This document shows, piece after piece, positions 3,639 through 6,752 of a DNA stretch of 64,000 nt. The DNA is from Ancylomarina subtilis. GTDB lineage: Bacteria > Bacteroidota > Bacteroidia > Bacteroidales > Marinifilaceae. Both the position numbers and the translations under genes were made by a program. Each line of letters opens with the position of its first letter. Position 1 is the first letter of the stretch. Location of the stretch: the NCBI RefSeq assembly GCF_004217115.1, contig NZ_SHKN01000005.1, positions 1 to 64,000 on the forward strand, written 5' to 3'. Under the pieces are notes generated by a model. The model was not told where the DNA came from. It saw only the letters and a program-made list of their open reading frames with translations, and made no database searches.

Positions 3639-3836
3639 TTTTATGACATCTCATTATTATAATTTTAACAGTAGATTGCATAGAAAACCTTATTTCCCTG
3701 TTTCTAGATACTAATGTCATGCTAATGAGTTTCTGAGCATAATTAATTCCAATATACCATGAACAGAATTGTATTGGTACTATATTTGTTAACAAACAAA
3801 AAATTAAAAATTCAATACAACGAGAATAAAACAGTT

Positions 3837-5519
3837 ATGCAGACTGAATATGACAAGAATAAACTAGTAGATAATGTTTATGCTCATAATATAAAACGTG
3901 AGGTGGTATATATTAAAGATGTACCAAGCGGAAGGAATGGCTATTACTGTATGGGCTGCGATCATCCTATGCAAGCGGTAAAAACAAAAATAGCGAATAG
4001 AAAATCTTTTTTCCGACACGATGTAACTGATGTCAAGATAGAGAGAAAATGTACATATTCAGATGTGGACTACAGGCAAAAATTCGCTAAAACAGTCTTA
4101 CAAGAAATCAAACGTATTAAAGTCCCCACACTATACAAATATCCACCCAAAGGATGCGTAGGAGTCAAAAATCTCTTAGCTAAATCAAAATACATTACTG
4201 CCCATACTGTAAGGATTAACATGCCTTTTTACGAAGATAAAAAAGGTGAAATACAATATGGAAAAAATGAAGATGGAAAAGATAGATATCTTTTAGAGAA
4301 ACCTGATGTCAGTTTCTTTGATATCGAAGGAAAGCCAATACTCTTTATTGAGCTCGTGACAAATCACAAACCAAATATTGAGAAAATACAAAATTACCAT
4401 CGGTTAGGAATCGATACGGTACAAGTACTAGTCCCCAAAAGTTCACGAGAAGATATTGAAGAAGCATTTAAAATAACATCCCATACTAAATGGCTATACA
4501 ATTATGAAGAATCAAGCACTGAATATATACAATCTGCCACTCCATCTACAGAAGGAATATCACCTATTGATAAAGACCAAAGACGAATTTTCGAAGAAAC
4601 AATCTCGTGCAGATCAGTACGAATTAACAACCTTATACGATCAATTAAACGATGTTTGGAATCTGAACACTACAGAGGCATTGAAGATGGAATTAGATCA
4701 GAAACATCAAGAGTTAAGAGAAATACAGAAGGAGCTAGAGAACAATTGCGAGGAGTACAAGATAAAAGAAGAGAAGAAATACAACAAAAATATCGAGGAC
4801 AGGAAAGTGAGCTTGAAGAAAAAGAGCGAGAACTTAGAGAAACAAGTGGAAATTTGGAAACAAGATATTATAATAAAAAAGGAGAACTTGAGAAAGCTCA
4901 CAGAGAACAACAAGAAATTAACGGCGGAGGAAGTTCAAAAATTAAAGACATTGACAGCGCTATCGAATACAAGAAAAGTGTACTTGACAGAATTTTGGAA
5001 GAGCAGAAAAAATGGAATGAAGTGTCAAACCATTTTGAAGAAAACAAAGAAGAACTTAGAAAAGAATTTGGAGAACTTAAACGAACAGAACAAAATAACA
5101 TTAAACGAATTTCAGAAAGAAGAAAAGATCTACCAGAACGATCTAAACAACTTGAAAATATCGAACGAGATAATTTTATCCGACTTAGAAAATCAACTGA
5201 AAATAATCTTAAAGAAGAACAAGAAAGAACAAATACAATATCAATCGAATTTAGAGAATCTGAAAAAGAAGAATCAAGAAGCTTTGAAATTGGAAAAGAC
5301 AAAATCAGATCAGATACTCAGAAACGATCTGAACAAATATGTAGAGAAATTACTGAGGGAAAAATTAGAAAAAATGGAAGACTTACCGATACAATTGAAA
5401 AGGGTATTAAAGCCATCTCAGCCCTCGATGATATTGTTGAGGTACGAGAATTATATAAAAGATACGAGACTGCTGAAAAACAATTTAGAATGGGATCTTA
5501 CAAAAATTGGAATGAGTGA
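3837..5519 (+). CDS. CoiA-like zinc-finger/nuclease protein with coiled coil
   Basis: A 560-aa protein from the ATG at 3837; an upstream in-frame ATG at 3759 adds 26 residues that look non-coding. The N-terminal part resembles the competence CoiA family: a CxxC...H zinc-binding segment (YYCMGCDHPM, then FFRHD and a Cys), then a PD-(D/E)xK-like nuclease core with 'PDVSFFD' and 'LFIELV' at about residues 168-185. From about 230 onward it is Glu/Lys/Arg-rich, with a conserved-looking helix around NNLIRSIKRCLES and then a long coiled coil ending in GSYKNWNE. CoiA-type proteins act on DNA, but this combination beside Kiwa suggests a defence effector (inference). The tail is also open in the +1 frame (see the overlapping entry). 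Confidence 0.7.
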   Translation: MQTEYDKNKLVDNVYAHNIKREVVYIKDVPSGRNGYYCMGCDHPMQAVKTKIANRKSFFRHDVTDVKIERKCTYSDVDYRQKFAKTVLQEIKRIKVPTLYKYPPKGCVGVKNLLAKSKYITAHTVRINMPFYEDKKGEIQYGKNEDGKDRYLLEKPDVSFFDIEGKPILFIELVTNHKPNIEKIQNYHRLGIDTVQVLVPKSSREDIEEAFKITSHTKWLYNYEESSTEYIQSATPSTEGISPIDKDQRRIFEETISCRSVRINNLIRSIKRCLESEHYRGIEDGIRSETSRVKRNTEGAREQLRGVQDKRREEIQQKYRGQESELEEKERELRETSGNLETRYYNKKGELEKAHREQQEINGGGSSKIKDIDSAIEYKKSVLDRILEEQKKWNEVSNHFEENKEELRKEFGELKRTEQNNIKRISERRKDLPERSKQLENIERDNFIRLRKSTENNLKEEQERTNTISIEFRESEKEESRSFEIGKDKIRSDTQKRSEQICREITEGKIRKNGRLTDTIEKGIKAISALDDIVEVRELYKRYETAEKQFRMGSYKNWNE

Positions 5520-5571
5520 ATCTTATTTTTTTAGAAAATTAGAAGAATTAGGGATATTAAATAATTTGTGA
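4504..5571 (+). CDS. Overlapping +1-frame ORF, Leu-rich coiled coil
   Basis: A 355-codon ORF starting ATG at 4504 lies entirely in the +1 frame of the CoiA-like gene's tail and runs 52 bases past its stop; the frame is stop-free from 4477. It would encode a Leu/Lys/Glu/Asn-rich coiled coil with occasional Trp and a compact end (SESYFFRKLEELGILNN). In the host frame, NTA codons are followed by a purine in 14 of 23 cases before the overlap but in 0 of 13 within it (hand count), so +1-frame stops are avoided. It could be a nested gene, a product of +1 frameshifting, or chance in purine-rich DNA. There is no visible ribosome site, which is normal in Bacteroidota. Confidence 0.35.
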   Translation: MKNQALNIYNLPLHLQKEYHLLIKTKDEFSKKQSRADQYELTTLYDQLNDVWNLNTTEALKMELDQKHQELREIQKELENNCEEYKIKEEKKYNKNIEDRKVSLKKKSENLEKQVEIWKQDIIIKKENLRKLTENNKKLTAEEVQKLKTLTALSNTRKVYLTEFWKSRKNGMKCQTILKKTKKNLEKNLENLNEQNKITLNEFQKEEKIYQNDLNNLKISNEIILSDLENQLKIILKKNKKEQIQYQSNLENLKKKNQEALKLEKTKSDQILRNDLNKYVEKLLREKLEKMEDLPIQLKRVLKPSQPSMILLRYENYIKDTRLLKNNLEWDLTKIGMSESYFFRKLEELGILNNL

Positions 5572-5651
5572 CATTCTATCGTCTTTTCTATTTTAATCCT
5601 AGCAAATCATATTAACATAAGACACTCTTAAAAATATGCATGAATATGACG

Positions 5652-6023
5652 CTATACTTTTAATACGATTTTAATTAATTTCTCGTCGATAATCTTGTGT
5701 AAATCCTTTTGGTTAGGATTCATATTTATAAAAATTGAGGCATCTGATTTGTCTGCCTCTATAATAATTAGATCATTTCGAAGCTGGATTATCTTTAATT
5801 TCCAAATACCCAGATCATTATAGAATGCATCTATAGAATACTGAATATAATCGTGGGAATCAAGTATCCAAATTTCTGCTTGAATCCCAAATTTCTCAGA
5901 TGAATCTTTTGAGATCAAAAATCGTTTTTGAATGGTAAAACCTCCTTTTTGAAGATCCTTTTTTAATGTTTCTTCAGTCGAACCCCACTTACCATGAATT
6001 ACTTTCCAAACCGGCCAAGTCAT
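5652..6023 (-). CDS. Hypothetical protein, 123 aa
   Basis: A 123-aa soluble protein beginning MTWPVWKVIHGKWGS. It has no signal peptide or membrane segment; the pattern is mixed alpha/beta with Trp-rich and Ile-rich strands and an acidic middle. I do not recognise a family. It is convergent with the CoiA-like gene and lies about 70 bases downstream of the CDF transporter gene on the same strand, so it may be the last gene of the metal-resistance transcription unit. Codon use resembles its neighbours. Existence is likely; the function is unknown. Confidence 0.6.
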   Translation of the reverse strand: MTWPVWKVIHGKWGSTEETLKKDLQKGGFTIQKRFLISKDSSEKFGIQAEIWILDSHDYIQYSIDAFYNDLGIWKLKIIQLRNDLIIIEADKSDASIFINMNPNQKDLHKIIDEKLIKIVLKV

Positions 6024-6092
6024 ACTATTTCAATTTCGTTTACTTAAGCATTATTAACCTTAATTTAAATGGATAAAATCTTCTGGACACTT

Positions 6093-6752
6093 TTAGTGAT
6101 GATGCCCATGCGAATGATGCTTTTGTTCAATATCCAATAATACACTTCCTGAGCCTTTAAGCAATCCAATTGCCCATTTTATAATTACCAGTGAACTTAA
6201 GATGGCTGCAATTGTATCAATAAATGGAATATCCCAAATCATGGCTACTGTCAATCCCAGTATAGCAGATAAACTTGTAAGTGCATCAGCAATAACATGA
6301 AGATATGCTGCTCGAATATTATGATCTGAATGCTCGTGGTCATGATGCAATAAAAATGCACTTATAATGTTTACAATAAGACCAATAATTGCAACAAAGA
6401 TAGCTTCCTTAAAATTTATGGATACAGGATAAAAAAAGCGTTCAATAGCTTCTACCATGATTACTATCGCAAATATTAGAAGCATTAATCCACTACTATA
6501 TCCAGATAAAGAAAGAATTTTATTCTTATCACCCGTGAATTTACCTTTTCTAGAAACCCTTCTTACTATTAAATATGCTAACCAACTTAATCCAATAGCA
6601 AGTACATGAGACCCCATATGAATTCCATCTGCAAGTAGTGCCATTGAGCCAGATGTAATACCGAAAAATATTTCAACAAGCATTGTCAGGAAAGTTAAAA
6701 CAACAACCCAGCTTGTTTTTTTTTGATTTTTATTTAAGTGAGATTCGTCCAT
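6093..6752 (-). CDS. CDF-family divalent metal efflux protein, short form
   Basis: A 219-aa cation diffusion facilitator with six predicted transmembrane helices. It exports divalent metal ions (Zn/Co/Ni type) from cytoplasm to periplasm by proton antiport. TM2 carries ADGIHMGSH, the DmeF-like variant in which His replaces the second Asp of the metal site. TM5 carries HVIADALTS, the HxxxD half. A His-rich loop (HHDHEHSDH) sits between TM4 and TM5 and the protein ends HHSHGHHH. Unlike the usual 300-residue members it lacks the cytoplasmic dimerisation domain after TM6, so it is a naturally short form or a truncation with an in-frame His tail. It follows two periplasmic HMA genes on the same strand. 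Confidence 0.85.
   Translation of the reverse strand: MDESHLNKNQKKTSWVVVLTFLTMLVEIFFGITSGSMALLADGIHMGSHVLAIGLSWLAYLIVRRVSRKGKFTGDKNKILSLSGYSSGLMLLIFAIVIMVEAIERFFYPVSINFKEAIFVAIIGLIVNIISAFLLHHDHEHSDHNIRAAYLHVIADALTSLSAILGLTVAMIWDIPFIDTIAAILSSLVIIKWAIGLLKGSGSVLLDIEQKHHSHGHHH

Follow-up and report, generated by a model that had tools for sequence, protein, structure and literature searches.

The coiled-coil tail of a CoiA-like nuclease gene of Ancylomarina subtilis almost certainly encodes two proteins in the same bases, the second of them read in the +1 frame. We analyzed this gene in a stretch of 64,000 nucleotides (NZ_SHKN01000005.1, positions 1 to 64,000; here called the window), and comparison with homologues supports purifying selection on both proteins, with both frames kept as protein coding across the Bacteroidota. 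The host ORF (3759 to 5519, plus strand, 586 aa) combines a CoiA-like zinc/nuclease head with a coiled-coil tail. Its ATG at 3837 (residue 27) is a likelier start than 3759, and the alignment of homologues begins there. The single-coding head (3837 to 4500, plus strand) was recognized from invariant or nearly invariant alignment columns and AF2 secondary structure. A TAA at 4474 to 4476 closes the +1 frame, which is then open through a nested ORF to 5571, in keeping with the stop-free tail reported in a preliminary description of this DNA. The nested ORF begins with the ATG at 4504, which lies over the host residues W-L-Y-N-Y-E and has A at −3 and −6 (4498 to 4506). It extends to 5571 on the plus strand and encodes 355 aa, with a conserved N-terminal part of ~78 aa, a predicted long helix and small C-terminal helices. 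The host stop, TGA, is at 5517 to 5519, and the nested stop, also TGA, is at 5569 to 5571, 52 nt past it. The dual-coded overlap thus measures 1,016 nt (4504 to 5519, plus strand); its assignment rests on recoding nulls, similarity beyond recoding, four-fold sites and a drop in synonymous differences. Between 4504 and 5516, the host and nested frames hold no stop and the third forward frame holds 50.

The codon pattern that had first drawn attention to the tail was recounted. Within the overlap, none of the 13 host NTA codons precedes a purine, none of the 6 NTG codons precedes A, and all 6 ATA codons are followed by a pyrimidine, exactly as described before. For the N-terminal part, the earlier 14 of 23 NTA codons before a purine became 16 of 28 in our recount of positions 3759 to 4476; the trend stood and the exact count did not. 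ATT, said to be used before purines, showed a preference (15 of 18 in the overlap) and not a rule. Among the nested NNT codons, 1 of 49 precedes AA, AG or GA; it lies at 5515 and is the host's own stop, so that the earlier statement of none before that stop was correct.

Our homologue set comprised 38 distinct family genes that carry the tail, the window's included, of which 34 were studied in detail and 4 were found later (genes are designated by L numbers; L001, L002, L039 and L048 are the window itself). Genome searches at family level (2 of 56 genomes matched) and at order level (2 of 393) each included the window's own genome and hence gave one homologue, and plasmid records gave five. 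A single scan of genome_contigs returned 29 loci, all of which we take, from their organism names, to be from Bacteroidota. The organism titles included Prolixibacteraceae, Saprospiraceae, Flavobacteriaceae, Hymenobacter, Spirosoma, Sphingobacterium, Algoriphagus and Marinifilum. The later homologues (L049, L050, L051 and L060) came from profile searches at phylum and class level, the class search matching 4 of 395 genomes at E ≤ 1e-10; at E ≤ 1e-5, blastn matched none of them to the other tails. Neither a tblastn search of phage records with the head nor two peptide patterns run against viral_contigs returned a relative, and a viral home was thus not found in these collections. We dropped L028 and L035, whose tails match those of L004 and L003 exactly over their first 300 nt, and the truncated, tail-less relict L038, and we kept L008, L031 and L034 despite their shortened or merged frames. 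The overlap was tested only up to the nested stop in L008 and L003 and from its own start in L060.

Some loci of the family are degraded or differently annotated. In Marixanthomonas spongiae (L038, 5968 to 6267), a nuclease-head relict persists as a 99-aa ORF directly after a 1196-aa ORF that is methyltransferase-like by eye; the remainder of the gene is gone. The tails of L031 and L034 are cut to 238 and 184 codons, respectively, with both frames still open and ending 64 and 7 nt apart. In Spirosoma sp. KNUC1025 (L008, NZ_CP087140.1), the host frame passes near 6429 into the frame that is nested in relatives, and this merger near the tail end is either a true indel or a sequencing error. The gene table for Hymenobacter sp. 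DG25B (L009, NZ_CP010055.1), drawn from PLSDB and known to be incomplete, lists a hypothetical CDS in the nested frame at 5572 to 6618 and no CDS in the host frame, and the Fibrella and Spirosoma records are annotated in the reverse manner.

The +1 frame was free of stops over the overlap in all 34 genes, with 186 to 372 codons open beyond the start site, and was open over the tail in the four later homologues as well. Synonymous shuffling of the window's host tail gave a mean of 9.4 stops in the +1 frame, and shuffling of its nested frame gave a mean of 15.7 stops in the host frame; 0 of 2000 shuffled codings were open in either case. Across the 34 genes, host-tail shuffles averaged 2.9 to 10.5 stops in +1, with 0 of 2000 open in 28 genes and a maximum open fraction of 0.0085, or 0.85% (L008). 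Nested-codon shuffles introduced 7 to 20 host-frame stops and left none of the 2000 codings open in any of the 34 genes, and the real third forward frame carries 15 to 54 stops. Shuffling of the four later homologues gave 6.3 to 9.5 stops in +1 and 11.1 to 13.0 in the host frame, again with 0 of 2000 open both ways. The preliminary description had named homologues with stops in the +1 frame, or shuffled codings that often stay open, as findings that would speak against its reading; neither was observed. Its view that both frames are constrained was borne out, since synonymous recoding of one frame, whichever it is, almost always puts stops into the other and all homologues keep the +1 frame open. 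As a flanking control, we used 123 ORFs of at least 300 aa from the same loci, in which the longest +1 open run was 114 codons, compared to 188 to 369 in the family. None of these 123 ORFs is equally rich in E/K/R/Q (cutoff, 0.33) and one stays open in its +2 frame for 229 codons; we thus regard the synonymous shuffles as the better control. The two frames also end close together, the nested stop lying 31 to 97 nt past the host stop in 31 of the 34 genes (exceptions: L003, −20 nt; L034, +7 nt; L008, −329 nt, with merged frames).

Selection on both frames was also evident from sequence divergence. Similarity to the window exceeded that of all 60 recodings in 33 of 33 homologues for the host tail and in 32 of 33 for the nested protein, with L009 as the exception. 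Four-fold host sites were nearly frozen in the overlap of close pairs: the changed sites numbered 1 of 130 in the overlap versus 16 of 67 in the nuclease part for L014/L017, 1 of 85 versus 21 of 58 for L018/L019, 4 of 71 versus 31 of 56 for L012/L015, 3 of 55 versus 40 of 53 for L021/L030 and 17 of 129 versus 41 of 58 for L005/L037. Over all 561 pairs, which are not independent of each other, the values were 0.308 in the overlap and 0.687 in the nuclease part. A synonymous profile pooled from nine chosen close pairs, two genes being used twice, showed 0.33 to 0.51 differences per window at codons −215 to −6 (0.20 in the first, sparse window), dropped to 0.13 at codons −5 to +9 around the nested start and remained at 0.04 to 0.22 within the overlap through codon 324, going up only in the last two thin windows. 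A DNA or RNA structure as the cause of this constraint was rejected, because it would not maintain two open frames and because all three codon positions vary between distant relatives. As to which frame is older, the host tail is nearer to local codon usage in 21 of 32 genes, a measure confounded by base composition.

That the nested frame alone codes in the tail, with the nuclease ending near 4500 and the open host tail a by-product, is scarcely credible: it would suit the Hymenobacter plasmid annotation, but it is refuted by the nested-frame shuffles and by host-tail similarity beyond recoding, and most aligned hosts share a K-N-W or similar C-terminal ending. Equally hard to credit is that the host frame alone codes, the open +1 frame being a by-product of an A-rich, E/K/R-rich coiled coil. 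The overlap is indeed A-rich (479 of 1013 nt), and the recoded tails acquire merely the low mean numbers of +1 stops given above. However, stops are absent from all 34 genes, the open fractions on shuffling are near zero, and the nested protein sequence and its start site are conserved; the shuffles, the similarity beyond recoding, the four-fold sites and the synonymous drop at the start together refute host-only coding.

We then considered how the second frame would be translated. In 36 of 38 genes the nested start codon departs from a common host site by at most one codon, and in the other two (L050 and L060) it is found 5 to 6 codons downstream. This site is a W-x-Y-N/H-x motif located where the nuclease domain ends; among the 34 genes, the start falls at the motif in 22, one codon upstream in 11 and downstream in 1, and it is ATG in 33 and GTG in 1. 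In the later homologues the first start codon is offset by −1 (L049), 0 (L051), +6 (L050) and +5 (L060) codons. Upstream of the start, all 34 genes have A at −3 and 32 of them have A at −6, and L060 has A at −3 and C at −6. In every one of the 34 genes, the start is supplied by a host codon with T in third position (log10 P of about −5.6 against the genes' own usage, an overstated value in which relatives are taken as independent). Where the start lies one codon upstream, the residue before the host Y is E or Q in 9 of 11, which yields A at −6, and Leu or Ile in the other two; most of the genes with E or Q look like one group of relatives, and L049, outside this set of 11, has Ala there. Since these bases also belong to the host codons for Y and N, or for E/Q and Y, the adenines are supportive only and not independent evidence. 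In Flavobacterium johnsoniae, A at −3 and at −6 raises initiation, and Shine-Dalgarno sites are described as absent in Bacteroidota (PMC6847099). RNA accessibility at the nested start was only mildly higher (mean z, 0.93).

The preliminary description had left a nested protein and a +1-frameshift product side by side. A programmed +1 frameshift shortly ahead of the nested start, whether or not internal initiation also takes place, would fuse the nuclease to the nested rod, and a shift could take place in the 5 to 37 codons that are open in +1 upstream of the start; slippery sites were considered through a reading of the sequence contexts. However, just 5 such codons are available in many homologues, L060 has a +1 stop between the host motif and the start, the start site is conserved in an initiation-type context, and the synonymous constraint begins about the start codon and not at the upstream stop. 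We thus consider frameshifting improbable. A separate nested protein is favored because the start site is conserved, the adenines fit initiation in Bacteroidota and the constraint begins about the start codon, and internal initiation is very probably its main route of synthesis.

The two proteins were then characterized by sequence and by structure prediction. In the head, the alignment columns C-x-x-C…H…C and P-D…E-x-V…H-K are invariant or nearly so, and we take them to be a zinc-type and a nuclease-like motif, respectively. The order of helices and strands in the AF2 model of the head fits a PD-(D/E)xK core. The family appears to resemble CoiA-like nucleases (CoiA_N, PF25164) in a putative zinc-type N-terminal domain and a putative PD-(D/E)xK-like core and differs from them in the long dual-coded tail. 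Pfam CoiA_N matched 6 of 27 homologues at E ≤ 0.1 (best E, 8.8e-8) and not the window protein, and neither the host nor the nested protein of the window matched any Pfam or NCBIfam model at E ≤ 1. PADLOC gave the window proteins weak matches only (ZorA and JetC, E ≥ 0.029), and profile searches of PDB sequences returned generic helical and coiled-coil proteins. AF2 modeled the host as a mixed head followed by long helices (pLDDT 76; pTM 0.37, low) and the nested protein as a 256-residue helix with small end helices (pLDDT 83; pTM 0.31, low). The best Foldseek match in the PDB was the Can2 nuclease, a weak one (E 0.021); in a viral library, a "Competence protein" (E 1.2e-3) ranked behind three better hits without functional names. 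The best reading of the host is a defense-associated zinc/PD-(D/E)xK-like nuclease with a coiled-coil tail. The strongest periodicity was helical (98 to 104 degrees) in 34 of 34 host tails and in 32 of 34 nested proteins (all but L029 and L034), and it exceeded the recoded nulls by a mean z of 2.4 for nested and 2.2 for host sequences; the window itself was above the null in neither frame (z of 1.2 and −0.2). The recoded nulls retain some helical power, and a coiled coil is thus partly echoed in its own +1 frame. Two weakly matching Bacteroidota relatives, L053 and L058 (325 and 317 aa), have a head that is similar by eye and lack the tail, which fits a later addition of the dual-coded tail. 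Both also show by eye several extra Cys pairs and are possible kin of the head's ancestor.

The gene adjoins a Kiwa system on the minus strand, in agreement with the defense-type locus proposed beforehand: KwaA (2060 to 2677; PADLOC E 6.5e-75) and KwaB (1054 to 2067; PADLOC E 2.6e-116; Pfam KwaB E 1.3e-18), both with NCBIfam matches below the respective cutoffs. At 13 of 26 genome_contigs loci, judged by eye, the nearest upstream ORF, picked mechanically at a length of at least 90 aa, is co-oriented and ends within ~115 nt. Of 10 upstream genes hand-picked at nine loci, 8 match PADLOC at E ≤ 1e-5 and 2 do not; the models are RmrA, Orf5/SspE-type, type IIG, PDC-S26, DRT, NsnA, MzaE and a mads/Lmu-type ATPase. 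Scanning of 117 neighbors with PADLOC and Pfam placed type I, type IIG, SoFic and other defense families among the 25 families listed out of 475, a plain tally and not an enrichment. From these surroundings, a role of the dual-coded gene near or in phage defense appears probable.

We propose that the tail of the nuclease gene was overprinted in +1 by a second gene, which has a start site of its own where the nuclease domain ends. Ribosomes would start internally at this site, with the adenines at −3 and −6 as an aid, Shine-Dalgarno sites not being used in this phylum. A single mRNA would then yield two products, the nuclease with its coiled-coil tail and, separately, the nested coiled-coil protein. 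With less certainty, the host tail and the nested protein would pair through their rods, and the nested protein would assemble the nuclease or restrain it until a phage signal releases it. We lean toward this explanation as a whole. Considered separately, the nested protein seems somewhat more apt to be a direct partner of the host tail than not to be, and a control of nuclease activity by it is put forward tentatively. Among the 395 phylum genomes, those with strong matches to the host profile and those with strong matches to the nested profile were the same four, one of them being the window's own; weak matches in 7 further genomes for the host profile and 4 for the nested profile (E of 9e-6 to 1e-3) were treated as background, L053 and L058 having been inspected. 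This joint occurrence with the nuclease speaks against the most serious alternative, namely, that both proteins are made and the nested one does not regulate the nuclease, acting instead as a scaffold of its own, as a rod that senses phage or as a regulator of a neighboring system. In favor of that alternative, the family adjoins varied defense genes, and the rod looks replaced, as expected of an arms-race surface; we consider it rather unlikely, though less so than frameshifting.

The replacement of the rod was seen in a nucleotide alignment of eight Flavobacteria genes in 60-column windows. For L019 and L020, identity is 83 to 100% through the head and ~200 nt into the overlap and mostly 41 to 61% thereafter, and L013 and L018 likewise fall from 81 to 98% to 35 to 70%. 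In contrast, L018/L019 and L016/L018 are 78 to 100% and 81 to 96% identical, respectively, across the coding stretch. At the amino acid level, head identities of 0.90 accompany tail identities of 0.40 or 0.43 in the first type of pair, compared to 0.89 to 0.90 with 0.85 to 0.89 in the second. The dual-coded rod thus looks to have been exchanged as a unit among close relatives whose nucleases are ~90% identical, although the rods may instead have diverged very fast. As the two rods are written in one stretch of bases, an exchange of that stretch would swap both partners together and keep the pair matched. We tentatively picture a defense gene, present across Bacteroidota, in which effector and partner share the same ~180 to 350 codons and the rod is swapped as a cassette, the overlap guaranteeing a matched, lineage-specific pair; the coiled-coil repeat echoed in +1 may predispose to this arrangement.

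The nearest known layout is that of Rz/Rz1 of phage lambda, where the second gene lies in the +1 frame of a coiled-coil gene, the products form one complex and gene callers miss the inner gene (PMC6139136). Rz1 is a short outer membrane lipoprotein and Rz a membrane protein, both serving lysis, whereas the overlap described here is far longer (~1 kb) and its host is nuclease-like and sits among defense genes. As judged from their cysteines, the nested proteins show no lipoprotein signal, 0 of 34 having Cys in the first 40 residues, and by alignment the host begins with the zinc/nuclease head and not with a membrane anchor; a short hydrophobic run in the 26 residues before the likely start of the window host is absent in the other five aligned hosts. 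The antisense genes of E. coli O157:H7 and comS inside srfA, the latter named in PMC12350097, likewise represent an unannotated second frame within a known gene. Known bacterial overlapping genes have been described as mostly short, low in expression and confined to narrow taxa, and long overlaps are often suppressed by annotation programs (PMC9927249); one census omitted overlaps of more than 59 bp as possible misannotations (PMC3887535). Compared to the long bacterial overlaps reported, the present one is on the same strand, mostly exceeds 300 codons and has been retained in several families of Bacteroidota. One phage-selected defense system of E. coli includes a CoiA domain (PMC9519451). 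Nuclease-protease pairs, the partner being a trypsin-like protease gene, were acquired by several immune systems (PMC12799240); the likeness lies in a nuclease with a partner attached to unrelated defense systems, and the words "CoiA," "coiled" and "overlapping" were not found in that text. Among the matches listed from the open-access literature, compared by titles and the starts of abstracts and with subscription papers mostly outside, we found no description of a second gene that overlaps a CoiA-like one.

Extended overlaps on one strand are commonly taken for annotation errors, and the comparative evidence presented here backs a case of ~1 kb beside defense genes. Double coding kept by selection over such a length across distant Bacteroidota would be very unusual in a bacterial gene, and it makes testable whether a functional protein pair can arise and persist in bacteria by overprinting. 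The combination of an open +1 frame and frozen synonymous sites in coiled-coil tails is a signature that can be scanned for and could reveal more cases. Finally, work on this nuclease by mutation or annotation could be misread if the second frame is left out of account.
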